Shown here: in pieces, positions 1 through 10,597 of the stretch
Position numbering within the stretch: the stretch's first letter is position 1
Layout: every line of letters starts with the position of its first letter
From: Muribaculaceae bacterium
GTDB taxonomy: Bacteria > Bacteroidota > Bacteroidia > Bacteroidales > Muribaculaceae
Direction: 5' to 3'
Assembly: GCA_017962285.1 (NCBI GenBank)
Contig: JAGCVR010000053.1
Coordinates: 1 to 11,872, forward strand
DNA: 11,872 nt
Notes under the pieces: model-generated
What the model was told of the DNA's origin: nothing
Databases searched by the model: none
The model's input: only the letters and a program-made list of their open reading frames with translations
Made by a program: the position numbers and the translations under genes

Positions 1-570
1 CAAATCGGAAGCATAGAATGTGGGAATAAAGGCCTTGTTTTTCGCAAACAATTGGTTCACATATTCACCGGGGGTGAGATGTTCATCATAAAGCGTACGT
101 GCCACATCCATGCCGTCGATTAGTTCTCCGTCTTCATCACCTTTGGCCTTGCGATTACTCTTGTAACCACGCTTCTTATTTATCATTAAAAGTACGCGGG
201 AGAAGTCTTCAAGGGAAATTTCTTCTTTCGCGGCTTTGGCGCGAAGACGAAGCGTGCTGAAAGTGCTACCTTGTCCTTGTTCTGATAAAATAGTTTCGTC
301 GTTTATAAACCTATGTTTCTTTAATAGCGAAATGAGATAATTTCTGCGTTGTTGATAACGTTTCAGGTTACGGCGCATACCACGCTTTTGGGTTCGTGGT
401 GATGTTGACGCTTTTCCTTTTTCAAAATCCGTGCGCTCATCAGTCGACAATGGATTTACACGCACACCAAGTTTCAAAATAGATGATGTCTCATTTGGAT
501 TTTCTGCCTGGTTCACTACAGCCCATCCTATGCTGGTAGTACCAAGGTCAAGACCTAAAATTCTCTTCAT
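1..570 (-). CDS. cas9: Cas9, type II-C-like, N-terminal 190 residues (runs off left edge)
   Basis: This is the RNA-guided DNA endonuclease of a type II CRISPR system; only its amino end is here. The frame is open from the ATG at 568-570 to base 1. Residues 1-19 form the RuvC-I strand (ILGLDLGTTSIGWAVV), with D8 as the expected metal-binding catalytic residue. Residues about 57-86 are an arginine-rich bridge helix (SPRTQKRGMRRNLKRYQQRR), and residues about 125-150 contain the RVLLMINKKRGYKSNRK segment that starts the recognition lobe in small Cas9s. HNH, RuvC-II/III and the PAM-interacting domain lie outside the window, so activity cannot be judged. The start is fixed by the motif's distance from the N terminus. 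No Shine-Dalgarno is visible, as is usual in Bacteroidetes. A tracrRNA candidate lies divergently upstream. Subtype II-C is inferred from the Bacteroidetes context and motif style; an IscB or other RuvC protein is unlikely given this bridge helix. Confidence 0.95.
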   Translation of the reverse strand, partial: MKRILGLDLGTTSIGWAVVNQAENPNETSSILKLGVRVNPLSTDERTDFEKGKASTSPRTQKRGMRRNLKRYQQRRNYLISLLKKHRFINDETILSEQGQGSTFSTLRLRAKAAKEEISLEDFSRVLLMINKKRGYKSNRKAKGDEDGELIDGMDVARTLYDEHLTPGEYVNQLFAKNKAFIPTFYASDL

Positions 571-608
571 GATTATTTGGAATTTGAATAGTTTTCAATT
601 TGATTTTA

Positions 609-616
609 CAAATTTA
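609..616 (-). promoter_or_regulatory. Possible -7 box for cas9
   Basis: On the minus strand this reads TAAATTTG, a perfect match to the Bacteroidetes TAnnTTTG element, and it ends 38 nt before the cas9 ATG. No TTTG lies at the usual spacing upstream. In this very AT-rich stretch the match could be chance, so the assignment is tentative. Confidence 0.35.
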
Positions 617-626
617 TTATTTTTTA

Positions 627-657
627 TTTGGATTTTTAGATTTTCTTCGTAAATTTG
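627..657 (+). promoter_or_regulatory. Bacteroidetes promoter for the tracrRNA
   Basis: TTTG at 627-630, a spacer of exactly 19 bp, then TAAATTTG at 650-657 reproduce the sigma-ABfr consensus (TTTG, N19, TAnnTTTG). Transcription would start about 664, just before the anti-repeat. It is the best-matching promoter in the window. Confidence 0.8.
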
Positions 658-663
658 CAGTAC

Positions 664-743
664 AATTTTGAAGCAATTCACAATAAGGAAGAATTTCCGT
701 TGTGAAAACATCAAGAGCGGGACTCCGGCCTCGTTCTTTTTTT
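664..743 (+). ncRNA. tracrRNA of the type II CRISPR system (predicted)
   Basis: This is an RNA of about 80 nt that would pair with pre-crRNA repeats and be bound by Cas9. Positions 666-683 read TTTTGAAGCAATTCACAA. The reverse complement begins TTGTGAATTGCTTCAAAA, closely resembling the start of known Bacteroidetes type II-C repeats (GTTGTGATTTGCTTTCAA), which supports an anti-repeat. It is followed by a nexus-like hairpin: GGAA (687-690) pairs with TTCC (694-697). CACAA (679-683) can also pair with TTGTG (700-704). A 9-bp terminator hairpin and seven T residues end it at 743. It has its own promoter at 627-657 and is divergent from cas9. The 5' end is inferred from promoter spacing. The array that would confirm the anti-repeat is outside the window. 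Confidence 0.85.
713..743 (+). terminator. Intrinsic terminator and last hairpin of the tracrRNA
   Basis: AAGAGCGGG (713-721) pairs with CCTCGTTCTT (730-738) through nine pairs, two of them G-T wobbles, around an 8-nt loop. A T-tract covers 737-743. Such a hairpin both ends the transcript and forms the usual 3' stem-loop of a tracrRNA. Confidence 0.75.
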
Positions 744-1268: not shown

Positions 1269-1454
1269 TTACTTCCTTTTCTCTGGGCAGTCCTGCCTGC
1301 TGCAGGAGTGGGCGAGGGGGCAGCCGGCACATTGCGGCGGCATATTCCCCTCACGCCGGTGGCGGCGGATGGTGCGCACAATCATCACCACGGCAGCTGC
1401 CGCAGCCACAGCCACGACGAGCAAGGCGATTGTCAGTTGGACTGCGTGGCTCAT
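1269..1454 (-). CDS. Small cysteine-rich single-pass membrane protein (FeoB-associated-like)
   Basis: This is a 61-residue protein with one hydrophobic helix (about residues 5-27, Ala/Val-rich), then a basic stretch (RTIRRHRR), then a cytoplasmic-looking tail with C42, C45, C51 and C56 (CAGC, 5 residues, C, 4 residues, C). This order (N-terminal helix, basic linker, CxxC-type tail) resembles the FeoB-associated Cys-rich membrane proteins (Pfam PF12669), which are thought to assist iron handling. Here, however, no feoAB is in view. Its ATG overlaps the topB stop codon as ATGA, so it is almost certainly translated by coupling from the topB message. The cysteines could bind a metal or an Fe-S cluster; that is inference. 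The family assignment is tentative, the gene itself likely real. Confidence 0.7.
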   Translation of the reverse strand: MSHAVQLTIALLVVAVAAAAAVVMIVRTIRRHRREGNMPPQCAGCPLAHSCSRQDCPEKRK

Positions 1455-3514
1455 TTATCTGTGGGTTTGGCAAAAGTTTTAGCGACGAGGGTCCGCAGGC
1501 GTGCGGGAGTGAGGTCGGCAGGGTACTGCTCAAACGGCAGCACCAGCGTGCAGCCGTTGCGGTACTCGGAGCAGCCGTAGGCACGGTTGCCTTTCAGCAG
1601 ATGCCCGCGTCCGCACACGGGGCAGGGGAGTTCCTCCACGCTCTTGATGCGCGGGGCACGCGGCTTCTTCGCCTTGTCTCCGGCGGGCTTCCCCGGCGGT
1701 TTGTCGGGCTCCACGGCGATGGCGCTGCCCGTGTTGTCGCGCAGCACGCTGAGCACGATGTCGCTGACCATCGTCTTGAGTTCGTCGAGAAACTGCTGGG
1801 CGCTGAATTCGCCGCGCTCAATCTTGCGGAGCTTGTTCTCCCACAAGCCGGTGAGCTTTGCCGACTTGAGAAGCTCGTTCTTGATGGTGGCGATGAGCTG
1901 CTCACCGGCGGGGGTAGCCTCGAGGCTCTTGCGCACCTTGGTGATGTAGCGCCGCTTGAACAGCGTCTCGATGATGGCGGCGCGGGTGGAAGGACGCCCT
2001 ATGCCATTTTCCTTCATGGCGTCGCGCAGCTCCTCGTCGTCGATGGCGCGTCCTGCCGTCTCCATGGCACGGAGCAGGGTGCCTTCGGTATAGGGCTTGG
2101 GCGGCTGCGTGGCTTTCTTCAGCAGCGACGGCTCGTGTTCGCCGCTCTCGCCCTCCACGAACAACGGCATCGACTGGTTCTCGTCGTCGCCGGCGCTCTG
2201 GTCGGCATCGGCCTTGTCCTTGGCGAATATCACGCGCCAGCCTTCCTTGAGAATCTGCTTGCCGGTAGCGCGGAATTCGTGCTCGCCCACATGCGCCATC
2301 ACGGTGGTGGTGGAGAATTCGCAGTCGGGGTAGAACGCGGCGATGAACCGCTTGGCAATGAGGTTATAGACAAGTTTCTCGTCGCGCGAGAGTGCCACGG
2401 TCTGCGGCTCCACGTTGGTGGGGATGATGGCGTGGTGGTCGGTAACCTTGGAGTTGTCGAACACCTTCTTGCTTTTCGGCAGCTTGGCGCCCAGAATGGG
2501 CTGAGTGAGGGCAGAGTAGGGCGTCATGGCCTTCAGGATGTCGGGCACCTTGGCGTAGATGTCTTCACTCAGGTAGGTGGTATCGACACGCGGATAGGTG
2601 GTTACCTTTTTCTCGTAGAGCGACTGAACGAGCTGCAGCGTCTGGTCGGCACTGAACGAGAATTTGCGGTTGCACTCCACCTGTAGGCTGGTGAGGTCGA
2701 ACAGCCGCGGCGGCGCTTCCTTACCGTTCTTTTTGCTGATGTCGCCTATGGTGAGAGGCATGCCCTTAATCTGTTCTATCACCTGGTTGGCTTCGGCTTC
2801 GGTCTTGAAGCGGCCGCGGGTGGAGTTGAAAGTGGTGTCACGATAGAGTGTCTTGATTTCCCAGTAGTCTTCGGGGACGAAGTTGCGGATTTCGTGCTGG
2901 CGCGCCACGATAAGCGCCAGCGTGGGCGTCTGGACACGACCGATGGACAGCACGTTCTGCCCGTAGCCGGTGCGGTACTTGAGGGTGTAGAGACGTGTGG
3001 CGTTCATGCCCAGGATCCAGTCGCCAATGGCACGCGAAAGTCCGGCATAGTACAGGTTGTTGAATTTCTCGGCAGGCTGCAGCGACGAGAATCCCTCGCG
3101 GATGCTCTCGTCGGTGAGCGACGAAATCCACAGCCGCTTCACCGGCTTCTGGCATCCGGCTTTCTGGTACACCCACCGCTGAATGAGTTCTCCTTCCTGC
3201 CCGGCATCACCGCAGTTTATCACCTCGTCGGCACCGGCAATGAGGGTTTCAATCACATGGAACTGTTTCTTAATGCCTTCGTCTTCAATGAGTTTTATGC
3301 CGAAACGGTCAGGGATCATGGGCAATGCGCCCAGGCTCCACCGTTTCCAGAGGTCGGTGTAGTCGGCAGGCTCCTTCAGGGTGCAGAGGTGTCCGAAAGT
3401 CCAGGTCACCTGGTAGCCGTTGCCTTCGTAATAGCCCTCGTGGCGGTCATTGGCACCGAGCAGCCGGGCGATGTCGCGAGCTACACTGGGTTTCTCTGTT
3501 ACGCATACTTTCAT
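1451..3514 (-). CDS. topB: DNA topoisomerase III
   Basis: This is a type IA topoisomerase that cuts one strand through a 5'-phosphotyrosine, passes another strand and reseals; it decatenates DNA and resolves recombination intermediates in the cytoplasm. The 687 residues show an N-terminal TOPRIM domain (EKPSVARDIA at 7-16; GDAGQEGE at 102-109), SIGRVQTPTLA at 190-200, the active-site tyrosine Y307 in TTYPRVDTTYLS, KVTDHHAIIPT at 356-366, and a C-terminal zinc ribbon with C631, C634, C648 and C655. The TOPRIM DxD is DxG here (D103, G105). I recall this from Bacteroidetes TopB proteins, so it is probably a lineage trait. The start is the first ATG, immediately before the conserved strand. The gene follows mazG after a 198-bp repeat-filled gap and overlaps the small downstream gene by 4 bp. 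Bacteroidetes mobile elements also carry such TopB copies, but nothing else here points to one. Confidence 0.95.
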   Translation of the reverse strand: MKVCVTEKPSVARDIARLLGANDRHEGYYEGNGYQVTWTFGHLCTLKEPADYTDLWKRWSLGALPMIPDRFGIKLIEDEGIKKQFHVIETLIAGADEVINCGDAGQEGELIQRWVYQKAGCQKPVKRLWISSLTDESIREGFSSLQPAEKFNNLYYAGLSRAIGDWILGMNATRLYTLKYRTGYGQNVLSIGRVQTPTLALIVARQHEIRNFVPEDYWEIKTLYRDTTFNSTRGRFKTEAEANQVIEQIKGMPLTIGDISKKNGKEAPPRLFDLTSLQVECNRKFSFSADQTLQLVQSLYEKKVTTYPRVDTTYLSEDIYAKVPDILKAMTPYSALTQPILGAKLPKSKKVFDNSKVTDHHAIIPTNVEPQTVALSRDEKLVYNLIAKRFIAAFYPDCEFSTTTVMAHVGEHEFRATGKQILKEGWRVIFAKDKADADQSAGDDENQSMPLFVEGESGEHEPSLLKKATQPPKPYTEGTLLRAMETAGRAIDDEELRDAMKENGIGRPSTRAAIIETLFKRRYITKVRKSLEATPAGEQLIATIKNELLKSAKLTGLWENKLRKIERGEFSAQQFLDELKTMVSDIVLSVLRDNTGSAIAVEPDKPPGKPAGDKAKKPRAPRIKSVEELPCPVCGRGHLLKGNRAYGCSEYRNGCTLVLPFEQYPADLTPARLRTLVAKTFAKPTDK

Positions 3515-3530
3515 TGTTCTTTCTTTTTAG

Positions 3531-3662
3531 TAAACGAGTAGACGAGTAAACGAGTTAACGAGCTATTACTTTTTCTTTTTTAAGTTAACAAGTAAACGAG
3601 TTGACAAGTAAACGAGCGGATGCTTTTTAGATGACGAGTAAACGAGTTAACAAGTTGACGAG
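3531..3662. repeat. Three 32-bp blocks of an 8-bp tandem repeat between mazG and topB
   Basis: The plus-strand unit is TWRACRAG (for example TAAACGAG, TTAACAAG, TTGACGAG). Each block holds exactly four units: 3531-3562, 3585-3616 and 3631-3662. The first block of the third set starts with a variant, ATGACGAG. Spacers are 22 and 14 bp. CTATTACTTTTTCTTTT follows both block 1 and block 3, so a larger unit also repeats. The array covers most of the topB leader, ending 16 bp from its ATG. I see no open frame or clear promoter inside it. Confidence 0.85.
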
Positions 3663-3712
3663 CTATTACTTTTTCTTTTAGTTAACGGGGTTTGGCGATT
3701 TCTTGCGAGCGG

Positions 3713-4510
3713 TCATTCTCCGAGCTTCAGCCGTTTTGCCTCGTTCCACAGTTCTTCCATTTCATTGAGCGTCAAATCGTTGATACGTCGTCCTTCGAGT
3801 TTTGCTTTAAGTTCTATATGATTGAAGCGAGCGATGAATTTGCGGTTGGTCTTCTCCAACGCGTTATCGGGTCGCACGCCGTAGAGCCGCGCGGCGTTCA
3901 CCACGGCAAAGAGCAAATCGCCAAACTCCTTTTCGCGATCCACCTCGTGTCCTTCGGTGAGTTCGCGCTCCACTTCCGCCATCTCTTCACGCACTTTCTG
4001 CCACACGTCGTCGCGGTTCTGCCAGTCGAAGCCCACGTGGGCGGCCTTTTCCTGAATGCGCTCCGCCTTGATGAGCGAGGGGAGCGAAACGGGCACGCCG
4101 CCGAGAACGGTCTTGTTGCCGTCCTTCTCGCGCAGTTTAATCTGTTCCCACTTGTCGAGCACGTCGTTGGCGTTGTCGGCATGGTCGGTGCCATAGATGT
4201 GCGGATGGCGGAAAATGAGCTTGCGGCGAAGCGCGTCGCACACGCTTGCGATGTCGTAGTCGCCGGTTTCCTCACCGATACGCGCATAGAGCACCACATG
4301 GAGCAGCACGTCGCCCAGTTCTTTCTCAATGTTCTTCTTGTCATCGCTCAGAAGTGCGTCGGCAAGCTCCATCGCTTCCTCTATGGTGTTGGGGCGGAGG
4401 CTCTCGTTGGTCTGCACCGAGTCCCAGGGACAGCGTTCACGGAGCGTGTCCACCACCTCGAGCAGTTCTTCCAGAGCCTTGAGCCTCTTGTTTCTTATTT
4501 CCTCAGTCAT
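3713..4510 (-). CDS. mazG: Nucleoside triphosphate pyrophosphohydrolase MazG
   Basis: This enzyme hydrolyses (d)NTPs, including non-canonical ones, to NMP and pyrophosphate; in E. coli MazG lowers ppGpp and limits damage during starvation. The 265 residues contain the two tandem MazG domains of the full-length family. Domain 1 has EEAMELA with E44, E45 and E48, then EKELGDVLL with E64 and D67. Domain 2 has EEMAEVE with E175, E176 and E179, then EKEFGDLLF with E195 and D198; these helical acidic residues bind Mg2+. RHPHIYG (101-107) and KWEQIK (120-125) are also typical. The ATG lies 9 nt after the stop of the Zeta-like gene, so they are probably co-transcribed, an arrangement reminiscent of mazEF-mazG. 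The protein is intact and of normal length. Confidence 0.95.
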   Translation of the reverse strand: MTEEIRNKRLKALEELLEVVDTLRERCPWDSVQTNESLRPNTIEEAMELADALLSDDKKNIEKELGDVLLHVVLYARIGEETGDYDIASVCDALRRKLIFRHPHIYGTDHADNANDVLDKWEQIKLREKDGNKTVLGGVPVSLPSLIKAERIQEKAAHVGFDWQNRDDVWQKVREEMAEVERELTEGHEVDREKEFGDLLFAVVNAARLYGVRPDNALEKTNRKFIARFNHIELKAKLEGRRINDLTLNEMEELWNEAKRLKLGE

Positions 4511-4519
4511 GTTTGAAAT

Positions 4520-5113
4520 TTATTTAATCAGTGCTTTTGCCCATTCCGGAATTTCTTCAGTGTATTGCTTGATTAATTCTCCGTTGATTGTGCGATAGAG
4601 CAACTTAGGCAACTGATTGTCAACCGAATTATCATAAACATATGCTCTATCAACAAAAGAGAGCGCTTCCTCTGCATTAACAAGAGACTTGTAATAACGA
4701 GATATTACTTTAGAGATTTGTACTTCGTGTCCCCCATTAATATATCGCTGTGTAATACGGGCAACGTTTATTGATGGGTCCGATGTGCAAACATAAAAAA
4801 AACGAATAAAAAAGCCACATTCTTTTGCACTACGGAGAAACGCCAACTTTTCAGCAGAAGAAAACACCGTCTCAAAAACGAAATTCTGCCTGTTTTTTAA
4901 ACATTCGTAACGGATTTCTGTAGCTTTCTTAGCTGCTTTAATTACAGCCTCTTCCGAATTCCAATCACCAAAAGTCTCTTGTGCAATGTTATCAGGATTG
5001 ATATAAACACTATCTTCCGCCCACTCGTTAGCAAGTAGTTGGATTGTGGTAGTAGTTTTGCCCGAACCGTTTGGCCCGGCAACTACGCATAAAGTTGGTT
5101 TCCTGTCAGGCAT
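4520..5113 (-). CDS. Zeta-toxin-like / COG4185-type P-loop ATPase or kinase
   Basis: This is a 197-residue P-loop protein. Walker A is AGPNGSGKTT (12-21). NPD at 39-41 matches the place of the catalytic acidic residue in Zeta-type kinases. FETVFSS (80-86) is followed by RITQRYINGGHEV (119-131) and SRYYKSL (138-144), the GGH-and-arginine signature I associate with COG4185 proteins. Classical Zeta toxins phosphorylate UDP-GlcNAc; COG4185 members are little studied and their substrate is unknown, so toxicity is inference. The frame is open further upstream to 5227, but the ATG at 5111-5113 is preferred: it directly precedes the P-loop and overlaps the end of the upstream small gene by 8 bp, a typical coupled arrangement. 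Base composition looks more AT-rich than mazG and dsbD on either side, hinting at later acquisition. mazG follows after 9 nt. Confidence 0.8.
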   Translation of the reverse strand: MPDRKPTLCVVAGPNGSGKTTTTIQLLANEWAEDSVYINPDNIAQETFGDWNSEEAVIKAAKKATEIRYECLKNRQNFVFETVFSSAEKLAFLRSAKECGFFIRFFYVCTSDPSINVARITQRYINGGHEVQISKVISRYYKSLVNAEEALSFVDRAYVYDNSVDNQLPKLLYRTINGELIKQYTEEIPEWAKALIK

Positions 5114-5309
5114 TGGTTTTAATATATCTGTTTGCTCTACGTTTCTCAATTTCATTCTTTGCCATTTGAAGCCTACGCTTTTTCTCGGCTTCAGCCTTAG
5201 CGGTTGATTCCCGCGCCATAGCTGCAAAACCTTCCATTAAAGCGTGCAGCATTTCGTCTGAGGGCTCTTCTGACGAGTTTAAGCGATATTTTTTATGCTT
5301 TTCTTTCAT
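5106..5309 (-). CDS. Small charged protein, candidate antitoxin partner of the Zeta-like gene
   Basis: This is a 67-residue protein that I do not recognise as a named family. It is strongly charged: a lysine-rich start, an acidic segment (SSEEPSDE, 12-19), then a predicted long helix (about 20-60) rich in Ala, Glu, Lys and Arg that ends in a basic tail (EKRRANRYIK). There is no membrane segment or visible DNA-binding fold. Its last 8 bp overlap the start of the Zeta-like gene, and a TAnnTTTG box lies 23 bp upstream. Small first gene, overlapping ATPase second: this is the usual layout of antitoxin-toxin pairs, and it is the only ground for calling it an antitoxin. Confidence 0.6.
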   Translation of the reverse strand: MKEKHKKYRLNSSEEPSDEMLHALMEGFAAMARESTAKAEAEKKRRLQMAKNEIEKRRANRYIKTNA

Positions 5310-5332
5310 TGTTTGGATTTTTATTTGTGAGA

Positions 5333-5340
5333 CAAAGTTA
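5333..5340 (-). promoter_or_regulatory. -7 box for the small protein, Zeta-like and mazG series
   Basis: The minus strand reads TAACTTTG, a full TAnnTTTG match ending 23 nt before the ATG at 5309. The -33 region (about 5360) has no TTTG. Its place in the short gap after dsbD suggests the series is transcribed separately from dsbD, where I see no strong terminator. Confidence 0.5.
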
Positions 5341-5374
5341 GCAATTTTCCGTGAAACTTACGCTCCATGTTGCT

Positions 5375-7345
5375 TTATTTATCGAGTGCCTTGAGGAGGA
5401 AGCTCATGAACTTTTCCACATTCTCGTCGTAAGCCACCGGCCCGGAGATGAGTTCACCCTCGGGGTTAAGCACCACATAGAACGGCTGTGAATTGGAGTT
5501 GAACTTGTAGCGCTGCAGATAGCTCCATTTGTCGCCCACGGTGCTGAGTTTCACCTGTTTCCCGTTTTCTTCCACATAGACGGGGCTATCGAGACGAGAG
5601 CGGTCGTCCACCATCAGCGTGATGGTGATGAACCTGTCGTGAATGAGCGAGCTCACGTCATCACGGCTCAGCACGGCACCTTCCATTTTGCGGCAATTAA
5701 CACATCCGTAACCTGAGAAATCAATGAACACGGGTTTGCCGGTCTTCGCCGCCTCTGCCATTCCACTGTCGAAATCGTCGAAAACCACCGCAGCTTCGCC
5801 GTTCAGGTTAAAGTCCTGCGTGGTCATGGGCGGGACAAATGCGCTTGTGGCACGCAGCGTAGCGCCCCAGAGACCGGGAAGAAGGTAAGCTGTAAAAGCC
5901 AGCGACGCCAGCGCAAGGAACAACCTGATTACCCCCAGTTCCTTCACTTCATCGTCGTTCTTGAAACGAATCAACCCCAACAAATACAATCCCAGGGCTC
6001 CGAATATCACTATCCACAGCACGATAAACACCTCGCGGTCCAGTATGTGCCAGCCATAGGCGAGGTCCGCCACGGAAAGGAACTTAAGCGACAACGCCAG
6101 TTCCACAAATCCGAGCACCACTTTCACGGTATTCATCCAGCCTCCGGAACGAGGCAGTTGCTTCAGCCACGAAGGGAACAGCGCAAAAAGCGTGAAAGGG
6201 AGTGCCAGCGCCAATGCAAACGCAAACATACCCACCGCAGGAGCAAGCGTGGAGCCACTGCTCGCAGCCTCGACCAGCAACGTGCCGATAATGGGGCCGG
6301 TACACGAGAACGACACAATGACAAGCGTGAACGCCATGAAGAATATGCTCACTATGCCGGTGGTGCGCTCGGCGCGCTCATCCATGCGGTTGCTCCACGA
6401 TGACGGCAGCTTGATTTCGAATGCACCGAAGAAAGAAAGGGCGAACACCACAAGCAGAAGGAAGAACACAATGTTGCACACGGCATTAGTGGCAAGATTG
6501 TTCAGCGCGTCAGCACCGAAGATTGCGGTGACCAAAAGCCCCAGCAACAAATATATCACAATGATGGCGACACCGTAAGTTATGGCACTCGCCACAGCGC
6601 GTCGCCTGTTCTCGCTCTTTTTCAGAAAGAAACTGACGGTGAGCGGTATGATGGGCCACACACACGGGGTGAGCAGAGCCAGGAGTCCTCCGAGGAAACA
6701 CGCGAAGAAAACATACCACAGCGAATTGCCATCGGTGCTGCTGCCGGTGGGAGAATTGCCGTCGGAATAGGTTACGGGCGCCCACAATTTGTCATGTGAG
6801 ACTGTAACGGGGTCTGATGCGGCAAGCGTGCTGTCTTCGTCATTCCGGCTCTCTTCCTGAACGACATCCGATTCATTTTCATTTTTCTTTTTCTGCACTG
6901 TGCCGCTGAACGAGAACGGTTCCGTGGACGGAGCATTGCACTCGCGGTCGTTGCACGTCATGTAGCGAAGATTTCCCGATATGCTGTATTTTTCACCGGT
7001 AACCTCGAATTTCTGACTCAGGGTGACAGATTTCTCCCACCAGCTCAGGTCCATGTCGAACACATCGTCATGCACACGCGTCGGCGCAGGCGAAGACTTC
7101 AGTTCGCCTGTAAGCTTAACACCCTTTGTGTTGTCCCATTCCACAGAGAGCGGAGTGGGACCGCCAGCAGGCAGTTCATTTGAGTAAACATGCCAGCCAT
7201 TGTCGATTGTGGCGGTGAAGGTGATTACGCCTTGCGAGTCATCGGTCATGGCCGCACGGCTCTGCCACTTGGCATGATGCGCAACCTGCGCCACCACAGC
7301 CATTGAGATTAACAACGAGAATGCTATTGTCAGTAATCGTTTCAT
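5375..7345 (-). CDS. dsbD: Thiol:disulfide interchange protein DsbD
   Basis: This inner-membrane protein moves electrons from cytoplasmic thioredoxin to periplasmic thiol partners. Using the ATG at 7343-7345 it has 656 residues: a signal peptide (MKRLLTIAFSLLISMAVVAQ); an N-terminal DsbD-alpha-like domain with the pair C131 and C136 (TCNDREC); a charged linker; a membrane domain from about residue 209 with about eight helices, carrying C228 (LLTPCVWPIIP) and C348 (SFSCTGPIIG) as the transmembrane redox pair; and a C-terminal thioredoxin-like domain with CVNC at 548-551 (GYGCVNCRKME). All three redox pairs are present, so it should be functional. An ATG 39 bp further upstream (7384) is in frame but falls inside the predicted promoter, so the shorter start is preferred. 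It diverges from the nrnA cluster. Confidence 0.93.
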   Translation of the reverse strand: MKRLLTIAFSLLISMAVVAQVAHHAKWQSRAAMTDDSQGVITFTATIDNGWHVYSNELPAGGPTPLSVEWDNTKGVKLTGELKSSPAPTRVHDDVFDMDLSWWEKSVTLSQKFEVTGEKYSISGNLRYMTCNDRECNAPSTEPFSFSGTVQKKKNENESDVVQEESRNDEDSTLAASDPVTVSHDKLWAPVTYSDGNSPTGSSTDGNSLWYVFFACFLGGLLALLTPCVWPIIPLTVSFFLKKSENRRRAVASAITYGVAIIVIYLLLGLLVTAIFGADALNNLATNAVCNIVFFLLLVVFALSFFGAFEIKLPSSWSNRMDERAERTTGIVSIFFMAFTLVIVSFSCTGPIIGTLLVEAASSGSTLAPAVGMFAFALALALPFTLFALFPSWLKQLPRSGGWMNTVKVVLGFVELALSLKFLSVADLAYGWHILDREVFIVLWIVIFGALGLYLLGLIRFKNDDEVKELGVIRLFLALASLAFTAYLLPGLWGATLRATSAFVPPMTTQDFNLNGEAAVVFDDFDSGMAEAAKTGKPVFIDFSGYGCVNCRKMEGAVLSRDDVSSLIHDRFITITLMVDDRSRLDSPVYVEENGKQVKLSTVGDKWSYLQRYKFNSNSQPFYVVLNPEGELISGPVAYDENVEKFMSFLLKALDK

Positions 7346-7381
7346 CGGGAAATTTCTCTTCAAAGGTTCACAAAGTCTTTG

Positions 7382-7412
7382 CAAAAATACTAAAAAATAG
7401 CATAACCAGCAA
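7382..7412 (-). promoter_or_regulatory. Promoter of dsbD
   Basis: On the minus strand TTG (7412-7410) and TATTTTTG (7389-7382, TAnnTTTG) are 20 bp apart. Transcription would begin about 7375, which excludes the upstream ATG at 7384 and supports the start at 7345. Confidence 0.6.
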
Positions 7413-7430
7413 TTTCCAGTAGAGTTCTAT

Positions 7431-7458
7431 TTCATTAAATGAATTTGCTTAACGTTAA
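7431..7458. promoter_or_regulatory. Two palindromes between the divergent promoters
   Basis: TTCATT-A-AATGAA (7431-7443) and TTAACGTTAA (7449-7458) are perfect inverted repeats lying between the dsbD and nrnA promoters. They could be operator sites, but AT-rich palindromes arise easily by chance. Confidence 0.3.
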
Positions 7459-7485
7459 AGAGTGGTAAAATGCAGTTAAATGTGA

Positions 7486-7515
7486 TTGATAATTGGAGAT
7501 TATTTCTTAAATTTG
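7486..7515 (+). promoter_or_regulatory. Promoter of the nrnA-lipoprotein-glmM cluster
   Basis: TTG (7486-7488), a 19-bp spacer and TAAATTTG (7508-7515) fit the Bacteroidetes consensus. The -7 box ends 20 nt before the nrnA ATG at 7536, giving a short leader. Confidence 0.7.
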
Positions 7516-7535
7516 CAAGTTATTAATGACAATTT

Positions 7536-8552
7536 ATGGCAGTACCCATTTTAGACAAAAACGATATCAGCAAGCTGCGCAGTCACATTGAGCAGGCGCA
7601 GCGTATTGTTATCACTTGCCACAAATCGCCCGACGGCGACGCGTTGGGGTCATCGCTTGCCCTGTACTCTTTATTCCAGGCTATGGGTAAGCTGGTCAAC
7701 ATCATAACGCCCGACATGCCGCCGCGCCAACTGAATGACTTGCCACTGATTTCCAGAATCACCATAAACTCACAAAACGAAGTTCTCGCAAAGGCAATCG
7801 TAGAGCGTGCCGACTTGATATTCTGCCTCGACTTCAACGCTCTCTATCGCATTGACCGGCTGGGTGACACCATCGACAAAGCAACGGCTGTAAAAGTCCT
7901 CATCGACCATCACATGGGACCCGACATTGCCTGCGACATCATGTTCTCATTCCCGCTGATGTCATCAACATGCGAGCTTGTCTATTATGTGATTCGCGAT
8001 CTGGGATATAAGCGGCTGATGAACCGCACCATTGCGCAATGCCTTTACGTGGGAATGATGACCGACACGGGTAATTTCACATTCAACAGCGATTATCCCG
8101 AGATTTACCAGGTCATAGCCCATCTTGTGAGTTTCAACATCGACAAGGAATGGCTCTATAACCTGGCGATGAACACGTTCAGTGCCGACTGCCTGCGCCT
8201 TCGCGGCTATGCAATTAATGAAAAGATGCAGATTTACGAGCAGCAGCACGCTGCAGTCATATCTCTCAACAAAGACGAACTGACCAGATACAACTATCAC
8301 AAAGGCGACACCGAAGGTCTGGTAAACAAGCCTCTTTCCATTCCGGGAATCACCATGTCGATTTTCGTACGTGAAGACAACGATAACATCAAGATATCCT
8401 GTCGCTCGAGAGGGGACAGGTCGGTGGAGGAAATCTGCCGACTGCATTTCGGCGGTGGCGGGCATCTGAATGCCGCCGGTGGTGAATACTACGGACCGAT
8501 GGACGATGCCTTGGCATTAATCGACAAAATCATTAAAGAACTCAAATATTAA
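7536..8552 (+). CDS. nrnA: DHH/DHHA1 phosphoesterase, NrnA-like (nanoRNase / pAp phosphatase)
   Basis: This is a cytoplasmic Mn2+-dependent phosphoesterase that degrades 2-5-nt RNAs and, in related enzymes, dephosphorylates 3'-phosphoadenosine 5'-phosphate; some relatives also cleave pGpG or pApA. The 338 residues show the DHH domain with CHKSPDGDALGSS (H29, D33, D35), D99 in FCLDF, the IDHH motif (D124, H125, H126) and MTDTGNF (D177). The DHHA1 domain carries CRSRGD (289-294) and the substrate-binding loop FGGGGHLNAAGG (305-316). All metal ligands are present and the length is normal. It is first in a plus-strand cluster, with the lipoprotein gene 16 bp downstream. NrnA versus a c-di-nucleotide-specific relative cannot be decided by sequence alone. 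Confidence 0.92.
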   Translation: MAVPILDKNDISKLRSHIEQAQRIVITCHKSPDGDALGSSLALYSLFQAMGKLVNIITPDMPPRQLNDLPLISRITINSQNEVLAKAIVERADLIFCLDFNALYRIDRLGDTIDKATAVKVLIDHHMGPDIACDIMFSFPLMSSTCELVYYVIRDLGYKRLMNRTIAQCLYVGMMTDTGNFTFNSDYPEIYQVIAHLVSFNIDKEWLYNLAMNTFSADCLRLRGYAINEKMQIYEQQHAAVISLNKDELTRYNYHKGDTEGLVNKPLSIPGITMSIFVREDNDNIKISCRSRGDRSVEEICRLHFGGGGHLNAAGGEYYGPMDDALALIDKIIKELKY

Positions 8553-8568
8553 AATAACTGTCACTGAG

Positions 8569-9147
8569 ATGAAAAATATAAAATCATTACTCTACGCTTT
8601 GTGCATGATACTATTCGCTACATCGTTTGTCGGTTGCAACGAATCCAAGAGTTATGCCGAACTGCTCAACGACGAGCGTCATGCCACAAACTCATTTCTT
8701 GCCAACTACCGCATAGTAAACGAAATCCCTGCCGACTCTGTCTTTGAGACCGGTGAAAATGCACCGTTCTACAGGATTGACCCCGACGGTCAGGTTTATA
8801 TGCAGGTGGTGAGCATGAAACGCCATCGCGACGACCCCGCCAAATACAACGACCCAATCTATTTCCGTTATATGCGCTATGACCTCCTGTCGTGGTACAC
8901 CAGCGGCATTTGGGAAGGAGAGGGCAACGCAACCGAGATGAGCCTTGCCTCCACATATTTCATGTTCTCCAACTTCTCATCGGCAGCATCGGCACAATAT
9001 GGTTATGGAATCCAGCTGCCGCTCACGCTTATCGGGGTGGACAGCGAAGTGAACATTATCGTTAAGTCGCAATATGGCAAATCGGACGAAATATCCTATG
9101 TCCGTCCATTCTTGTACAGGATTCGCTATTTCCGCAGCAAGATATAA
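8569..9147 (+). CDS. DUF4827-like lipoprotein
   Basis: This is a 192-residue secreted lipoprotein: a signal sequence (MKNIKSLLYALCMILFATSF) ending in a lipobox (FVGC, C23). The residues after C23 are NESKSY, with no basic anchor. I recognise it as the Bacteroidales family DUF4827, which I know as a neighbour of nrnA-like genes; its function is unproven. The end (about residues 140-185), with alternating strands around GIQLPLTLIGVDSEVNIIVK followed by a Tyr-Gly, recalls the core of FKBP-type prolyl isomerases such as the gliding-associated lipoprotein GldI. That resemblance is my inference and would fit a periplasmic folding helper, though active-site residues are not evident. It begins 16 bp after nrnA and is probably co-transcribed. 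Confidence 0.8.
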   Translation: MKNIKSLLYALCMILFATSFVGCNESKSYAELLNDERHATNSFLANYRIVNEIPADSVFETGENAPFYRIDPDGQVYMQVVSMKRHRDDPAKYNDPIYFRYMRYDLLSWYTSGIWEGEGNATEMSLASTYFMFSNFSSAASAQYGYGIQLPLTLIGVDSEVNIIVKSQYGKSDEISYVRPFLYRIRYFRSKI

Positions 9148-9205
9148 TATTTGCCCGACTTGACACCAGTCCTCAACTTGAATACTCACAAACAAAAACA
9201 TAATT

Positions 9206-10597
9206 ATGGCTTTAATTAAATCTATCTCTGGAATTCGTGGCACAATAGGTGGTCCCGCAGGCGACGGACTTACGCCACTCGACATAGTTAAATTCACAAG
9301 TGCTTACGCCACTTTCATTCGCCGCAACACCACAAACGCGTCGAACGTGATTGTCGTTGGACGCGATGCCAGGTTATCCGGACGCATGGTCCTTAACCTG
9401 GTCACCGGCACACTCACAGGCATGGGGTTTGACGTGGTGAACATAGGACTTGCCACGACACCCACCACAGAGCTTGCCGTGGTTGAAGAGAAGGCTTGCG
9501 GAGGCATCATCATCACCGCTTCGCACAACCCCAAGCAATGGAATGCGCTTAAACTGCTCAACGAGCACGGTGAATTCCTCAACGATGCCGAAGGCAAGGA
9601 AGTGCTCCGCATTGCCGATGCCGAAGAATTTGAATATGCCGAGGTTGATGCGCTGGGACGTGAACAGAAGAACTACACATATCTCCGCCGCCACATTGAA
9701 TCTGTGCTGGCGCTGAAACTGGTGGATGTGGAAGCAATCAGGAGAGCCAATTTCACTGTGGCAGTTGATGCCGTGAACAGCATTGGCGGCGTTGCCATCC
9801 CCAAACTGCTTGAGGCTCTTGGTGTGAAAAACGTGGTTAAACTGTTCTGCGACCCAACCGGCAATTTCGGGCACACTCCCGAACCGATTCCGGAGAATCT
9901 CACGGCCATCAGCGACTATATGAAACAGGGCAAGGCAGATGTGGCATTCGTGGTTGACCCCGATGTGGACCGCCTGGCGATTATCATGGAGAACGGCGAG
10001 TTCTTCGTGGAAGAATACACACTGGTGTCGGTTGCCGACTATGTGCTTTCGCACACTCCCGGCGCAACGGTAAGCAACCTGTCGTCGTCACGTGCCCTGC
10101 GCGATGTCACCATGAAACATGGCTGCCAATACACCGCTGCAGCAGTGGGCGAAGTGAACGTCACCACCGAAATGAAACGTACCGGAGCCGTGATTGGCGG
10201 CGAGGGAAATGGCGGAGTCATTTATCCCGAACTCCACTACGGTCGCGACGCGCTCGTGGGTGTGGCACTGTTCCTCACACTGCTGGCAAAGAGCGGAATG
10301 AAAGTCAGCGAACTTAAAAAGACTTATCCGCAGTACAGCATTGCCAAGACCAAACTCCAGCTCACCCCCGAAATGGATGTGGATGCCATTCTGGAAGCCG
10401 TAAAAGAGCATTACAGGAACGAGCAGCTCACCACCATCGACGGTGTGAAAATTGACTTCGCCGACGGATGGGCACACCTGCGCAAGAGCAACACCGAGCC
10501 CATAATCCGCATCTACAGCGAAGCCCACACGATGGAAGAAGCCGAGAAACTTGGCAACGACGTGAAACAAATTGTGCAGCAACTCTGCAACAAATAA
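9206..10597 (+). CDS. glmM: Phosphohexomutase, phosphoglucosamine mutase (GlmM-like)
   Basis: This cytoplasmic enzyme converts glucosamine-6-phosphate to glucosamine-1-phosphate, feeding UDP-GlcNAc for peptidoglycan and lipopolysaccharide. The 463 residues contain all four alpha-D-phosphohexomutase signatures: SGIRGTIGG (8-16), the phosphoserine loop TASHNP (104-109, S106), the metal loop DPDVDR (251-256), the sugar loop GEGNGG (332-337), and the phosphate-binding loop RKSNTEP (426-432). GlmM, phosphomannomutase and phosphoglucomutase share these. The sugar loop differs from the GEQSGH of canonical E. coli-type GlmM, but GEGNGG is what Bacteroidetes and archaeal-like GlmM or phosphomannomutase show, so the substrate is less certain than the family. 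It follows the lipoprotein after 58 bp and ends the cluster at a strong terminator. Confidence 0.88.
   Translation: MALIKSISGIRGTIGGPAGDGLTPLDIVKFTSAYATFIRRNTTNASNVIVVGRDARLSGRMVLNLVTGTLTGMGFDVVNIGLATTPTTELAVVEEKACGGIIITASHNPKQWNALKLLNEHGEFLNDAEGKEVLRIADAEEFEYAEVDALGREQKNYTYLRRHIESVLALKLVDVEAIRRANFTVAVDAVNSIGGVAIPKLLEALGVKNVVKLFCDPTGNFGHTPEPIPENLTAISDYMKQGKADVAFVVDPDVDRLAIIMENGEFFVEEYTLVSVADYVLSHTPGATVSNLSSSRALRDVTMKHGCQYTAAAVGEVNVTTEMKRTGAVIGGEGNGGVIYPELHYGRDALVGVALFLTLLAKSGMKVSELKKTYPQYSIAKTKLQLTPEMDVDAILEAVKEHYRNEQLTTIDGVKIDFADGWAHLRKSNTEPIIRIYSEAHTMEEAEKLGNDVKQIVQQLCNK

Follow-up and report, generated by a model that had tools for sequence, protein, structure and literature searches.

The cas9 gene at the contig edge and its divergent tracrRNA

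The window, which is the whole stretch of 11,872 nt analysed here, corresponds to a complete contig (C184) of a 1.48-Mb MAG with 224 contigs and an estimated completeness of 61%, and its base 1 is therefore a contig end. At this edge, on the minus strand, are found the first 190 codons of a cas9 gene (1–570, start codon at 568–570), which cover RuvC-I, the bridge helix and the start of the REC lobe, in a reading frame that remains open as far as base 1 and is interrupted by the end of the contig, with no stop. The protein begins with MKRILGLDLGTTS; the D8 of RuvC-I is invariant in the nine sequences aligned (9/9), and C-terminal to it the Arg-rich bridge helix SPRTQKRGMRRNLKRYQQRR is also aligned among the nine. 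It was from these two elements that the original prediction had recognized Cas9, and the identification is reinforced by the TIGR01865 model (cas_Csn1), which gives 108.1 bits, above its curated cut-off of 100, over model positions 2–167 of 1070, while the Cas9d model stays at 17.5 bits, far below its own cut-off of 375. Pfam found no domain above cut-off in the 190-aa piece, and the relatives found in the PDB are named Cas9, the top structure being CbCas9 (8iyq, E 7.4e-14). The eight aligned relatives are 64–69% identical to the N-terminus of the window, and the relatives from the searched genomes and the fetched loci 61–70%; in a protein search, 646 relatives had E≤0.001, and among the best 120 of these 646 the identity does not exceed 70%. 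At the level of genomes, a Cas9 match is present in 17 of the 61 searched, and in nine of the 37 of the same genus (G017 being weak, E 2.3e-7), the genome of the window being included in both counts. A possible −7 box for cas9, TAAATTTG, can be read from the sequence at 609–616 of the minus strand; it is weak and is not preceded by a clear −33 box.

Divergent from cas9, on the plus strand, is the gene of a tracrRNA of about 80 nt (664–743), located within a covariance match at 655–759, whose transcript would start 6–7 nt past the −7 box, about 93 nt from the cas9 start codon, and would thus face the cas9 promoter region. The promoter, anti-repeat, nexus and terminator that had been proposed for it are each found, and in that order, by means of promoter comparison, duplex prediction and folding. 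The anti-repeat extends over 664–684 and overlaps the core CAATAAGG...CCGTTGTG (681–704, plus strand); within the latter, the fold places the nexus hairpin at 687–698, with the form GGAA-GAAU-UUCC, that of the relatives being usually GGA-UUAU-UCC, and finally the intrinsic terminator occupies 713–743 (stem 713–738, T-run 737–743). The limits first given for the anti-repeat, 666–683, were too short, as in the DNA the complementarity to the best repeats goes from near 660 to 684, and therefore, in an RNA starting at 664, from about 664 to 684. The single-sequence fold is less striking, with z −2.0 for the 80-nt RNA and z −2.7 for the terminator alone.

The family comparison is based on 80 loci fetched by Cas9 similarity, the best 80 of 280 candidate stretches encoding a relative. 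In 79 of them the tracrRNA core lies upstream of cas9 (74 divergent and five on the cas9 strand), at a distance from the cas9 start codon of 43–495 nt, with a median of 118; in the other, L098, the search for the core pattern upstream of cas9 found no tracrRNA. According to a passage quoted in PMC7366714, the promoter consensus of Bacteroides is TAnnTTTG at −7 together with TTTG near −33, and the putative promoter of the window tracrRNA, TTTG at 627–630 followed, after a spacer of 19 nt, by TAAATTTG at 650–657, fits this Bacteroidota consensus. In the 80 tracrRNA upstream regions compared (79 relatives and the window), TAnnTTTG appears within 75 nt of the tracrRNA in 72, that of the window among them (shuffles give 6.8 on average and 13 at most), and TTG is found 18–22 nt ahead of this box in 44, against a shuffle mean of 0.65 and maximum of 3; the eight regions that lack the box are those of L029, L039, L044, L054, L067, L074, L085 and L088. 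From the end of the −7 box to CAATAAGG there are 23 nt in the window, which is the commonest distance in the family. A generic sigma-70 scan of the window gave two weak sites only, neither of them at the tracrRNA start. The tracrRNA of the window is presumably transcribed.

The tracrRNA family, its arrays and the rest of the locus

A covariance model was built from 40 of the 79 aligned relatives, the window being left out and the other 39 held out. The core pattern with which the training RNAs were chosen was written after the upstream regions, that of the window among them, had been viewed, and therefore the model is blind to the row of the window, but not to its motif. With this reservation, the covariance search that had been proposed earlier recovers the window tracrRNA at 655–759 with 82.8 bits (E 5.1e-15), within the range of the held-out relatives, all of which were found (39/39, 67.5–102.5 bits), and in the whole MAG it is the sole match at E≤1 (E 6.2e-13). 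Of the more distant Cas9 loci, L011–L019, the model found seven out of nine and missed L017 and L019; beyond the tracrRNA loci the matches reach a maximum of 33.9 bits, from a tracrRNA relic in L027, followed by 23.6. In a sample of the phylum, 20 of 296 genomes have a match to the tracrRNA model, and in a separate sample 65 of 395 have a Cas9 above cut-off (the genome of the window being counted in both), so that the reach of the model is limited to one portion of the Cas9 diversity of the phylum. Rfam, at E≤1, has no tracrRNA family matching the window. The reusable gain is a covariance model for the tracrRNA of this Bacteroidota group; for the window itself, the cas9 at the contig edge and an RNA gene with no match in Rfam are now correctly annotated.

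Some loci hold more than one unit of this type. The relic of L027 (2423–2519, minus strand, 33.9 bits) is a second, partial tracrRNA that consists of the 3′ part and the terminator, with no anti-repeat; L118 contains a tandem pair of tracrRNA-like units, of which the first lacks the GTTGTG copy; and genome G188 (L113, L120) has two tracrRNA matches on a single contig, separated by 6.4 kb in which Cas9 matches are located.

A CRISPR array is present in 58 of the 80 related loci, downstream of the cas9 start in 57 and upstream in one (L032), with a repeat length of 47 nt in 48 of the 58 arrays, and the tracrRNA-complementary sense of the repeat is on the strand opposite cas9 in 57 of the 58. The predicted duplex between each repeat and its own anti-repeat has a mean of −27.6 kcal/mol, against −19.6 with the repeats of other loci, and the fraction of other repeats that pair better than the own one has a median of 0.0 and a mean of 0.043 (57 loci, with the repeat of L081, CAMJJG010000016.1, left out and that of L082 in the wrong orientation). 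The window anti-repeat, confronted with the repeats of relatives, reaches −32.0 kcal/mol with that of L026 and −27.3 with several, the median being −21.7; with shuffled repeats the mean is −7.8 and the minimum −19.4 kcal/mol.

These repeats also carry promoter signals. In the crRNA sense, GTTG at the first base and TAnnTTTG 18–22 nt further on, that is, a complete promoter, are found in 52 of the 58 array repeats, and the −7 box in 54 of the 58, against a shuffle mean of 1.4 of 57. Repeat promoters were considered as a new feature and rejected as such, given that passages of PMC8092290 and PMC10309648 describe them for Flavobacterium, and of PMC12080349 for type II-C generally, these same sources attributing the transcription of II-C arrays to promoters within their repeats. 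The full Bacteroidota promoter in the repeats is a modest extension of this and no discovery, because the Flavobacterium passages name TTG only and for Riemerella, in the corresponding passage, none was found. The Bacteroidota promoter is recognized in the tracrRNA gene as well as in the repeats, a point that was missed or not found in the parts of PMC5608340 and PMC5006608 that deal with promoters. The 36-nt repeats of L039 and L076 stop a few nt past the TCTTTG of the promoter site, and the 47-nt ones extend for about 11 nt more.

As regards the rest of the locus, a cas9 ORF of more than 1000 aa is found in 68 of the 80 loci (1219–1594 aa, median 1419), the remaining 12 including some that are cut by contig ends, and from these lengths some 1,030–1,400 further Cas9 residues (median about 1,230) are to be expected beyond base 1. 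The sole full Cas9 that was scanned for domains, that of L021 (1374 aa; JAGHSP010000205.1, Candidatus Sodaliphilus limicaballi), has HNH_4 and RuvC_III; in this locus and in L076 (CAJOFM010000009.1, uncultured Muribaculaceae), the two same-genus loci scanned, cas1_NMENI (type II Cas1) and cas2 are directly behind cas9, and L076 also has an array. The filing under type II-C, which the original prediction had proposed, is thus supported through the relatives, since it is they that carry HNH, RuvC-III, cas1, cas2 and arrays, and by analogy with them the system of the window is probably complete. Searches of its own MAG gave no further piece of Cas9, no cas1 and no cas2, and the expected repeat, sought with up to three mismatches, gave only the anti-repeat itself; these absences are weak evidence, because the MAG is 61% complete and divided into 224 contigs. 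Extra genes are found directly behind the cas9 of some relatives (L057:10144–10995, L028:14264–14569, L027:14371–15387, L063:14329–14850 and L022:14419–15048), and the kinds represented are Bro-N proteins, a RhuM-family protein, DUF6155 and a REP-type transposase-like protein.

Interpretation of the locus and its known counterparts

With the N-terminus of a Cas9, the anatomy of a tracrRNA, the conservation of this RNA in its family and its pairing with the repeats of relatives, the left edge of the window almost certainly belongs to a type II-C CRISPR-Cas9 locus, of which it holds the effector end; the host is a Bacteroidales bacterium, probably of the genus Sodaliphilus (Muribaculaceae). The cas9 gene would be transcribed leftwards, off the contig, where the rest of the locus would consist of cas1, cas2 and an array read towards cas9. 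It most likely works as is established for type II-C systems: Cas9 would bind the duplex that the tracrRNA forms with the repeat-derived section of the crRNA, and the complex would cut matching DNA, with probable processing by RNase III and probable interference.

Alternative explanations are that the edge is what remains of a decaying locus, that the RNA acts independently of any array, or that the protein belongs to another class. The first would suppose a fragment of cas9 and a relic tracrRNA, with the rest lost and no capacity for immunity, and in its favor are the relics that do occur, such as the tracrRNA 3′ part without an anti-repeat at L027:2423–2519, and the fact that neither the rest of Cas9 nor cas1, cas2 or an array was found in the MAG. 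However, completeness there is only 61%, the cas9 frame is ended by the contig and not by a stop, and the RNA gene retains an intact promoter, anti-repeat, nexus and terminator; an orphan of this type is very improbable. The array missing from the MAG, together with the location of an RNA that faces the cas9 promoter region at about 93 nt from the start codon, would also suit an RNA that works without an array, for example by regulating cas9 or other genes, a role played in Streptococcus pyogenes by the long tracrRNA. Nevertheless, the −7 box, 23 nt before CAATAAGG at the commonest family distance, suggests no long 5′ extension, and in the relatives the array repeats pair with their own tracrRNA, so that array independence seems extremely improbable.

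It could be argued, finally, that 190 residues alone cannot give a subtype, and that with no Cas9 domain from Pfam the protein might be of type II-A or II-B, or an IscB or other RuvC protein. This is hardly credible when TIGR01865 is above its cut-off and Cas9d is at 17.5 of 375 bits, and when relatives with 61–70% identity show the order cas9-cas1-cas2 with cas1_NMENI, and neither csn2 nor cas4 among the selected ORFs scanned in their loci.

Although well formed, this type II-C locus is an ordinary representative of a Bacteroidota CRISPR group already described. Passages of PMC7606464 describe Bacteroidota type II-C Cas9 orthologs with repeats of 45–50 bp (“clade X”), which coincide with the present family in the large Cas9, the long repeats, and the nexus and 3′ hairpin after the repeat:anti-repeat duplex; by analogy in repeat length and guide architecture we infer that the window Cas9 falls in this clade, its N-terminus being at most 70% identical to the relatives listed. 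The CRISPR-I of Prevotella intermedia, also of type II-C, has a 47-bp repeat, GTTGTATTTACCAATGCAAAGATACTAATTTTAAAGCTAATCACAAC, and resembles the present loci in the repeat pattern, in the anti-repeats upstream of cas9 and in the order cas9-cas1-cas2; in contrast, the corresponding section of PMC5608340 states that no promoter was strongly predicted for either anti-repeat, whereas that of the window is recognized via the Bacteroidota consensus. In a similar way, the type II-C CRISPR1 of Riemerella anatipestifer (anti-repeat TGAAAGCAATTCACAA) has a 47-nt repeat, an anti-repeat upstream of cas9, and cas1 and cas2, and differs in that, in the relevant passages of PMC5006608, no repeat promoters were found and of its tracrRNA only the anti-repeat is predicted. 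Flavobacterium columnare and F. psychrophilum share the II-C type, a putative tracrRNA and the proposal of repeat-encoded promoters (PMC8092290, PMC10309648), although the passages on their repeats name the TTG (−33) motif, while the repeats of the relatives of the window also hold TAnnTTTG at −7.

A predicted self-stem, and other features of the window

In the predicted fold of the free tracrRNA, the end of the anti-repeat, UUCACAAU (677–684), pairs with GUUGUGAA (699–706), enclosing the nexus. In the DNA the 5′ arm, TTCACAAT, overlaps the anti-repeat, with pairing probabilities of 0.79–1.0, and the 3′ arm, GTTGTGAA, copies the first 8 bases of the GTTGTGAATTGC-type repeats of relatives; in other words, beside its nexus the RNA carries a duplicate of the bases with which the CRISPR repeat opens. 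Among the 79 relatives the mean pairing probability of the equivalent 8 nt has a median of 0.88 and a lowest value of 0.65, and when the 3′ arm is shuffled the median falls to 0.43. In cofolds with the repeats of relatives, the self-stem is predicted to be replaced by the crRNA duplex, the nexus hairpin being kept.

The conservation of this stem was considered in an alignment of 64 selected sequences (the window, seven distant relatives, 18 of 20 further loci of the phylum and 38 of the 79 close loci), in which 99.1% of the cells pair and six of the ten pairs never vary, the sole two-sided change falling in the nexus. The alignment was fitted to the structure of the model, and the covariation count therefore leans towards structure; moreover, with arms that are near-invariant, it gives no covariation proof of the self-stem. 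One pair is broken in four of the 64 rows, those of L044 and L088 (CTCAA) and of L116 and L119 (GUAGUG).

One reading of these predictions, which we regard as rather unlikely, is that of a self-masked tracrRNA, in which the built-in copy of the repeat would cover the end of the anti-repeat until a true repeat opened the RNA. Binding of the crRNA repeat to the free toehold, GAAGCAA, would lead to strand displacement of the built-in copy, and in the meantime the unpaired tracrRNA would be kept from stray RNAs and from RNase III; if so, it would provide a built-in check on guide loading. In L017 and L019, which are more distant, the end of the anti-repeat, ...TTATCACAATAAGG, is conserved but GAAGGGTAAAAC or GAAGGTATAAG stands in the place of the copy, from which it follows that the copy answers to no general need, and it may instead be a contact for Cas9. 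Among the papers listed by a search of the literature, none on a self-folding tracrRNA was recognized, an absence that is of weak value.

Outside the CRISPR locus, a stretch without any gene-like ORF contains two hairpins at 1207–1252, where Rfam gives Acido-Lenti-1 with 33 bits, below its gathering score of 37. On the minus strand, 4520–5227 encodes a Zeta-toxin-type P-loop kinase (Pfam Zeta_toxin, 48.6 bits), the start of which is overlapped by a charged ORF of 67 aa (5106–5309, minus strand) that might be the partner of the kinase. The neighbors along 1269–10597 are ordinary: an FeoB-associated Cys-rich protein, a topoisomerase, MazG and DsbD, as well as a DHH phosphoesterase, DUF4827 and a member of the phosphoglucomutase/phosphomannomutase family.
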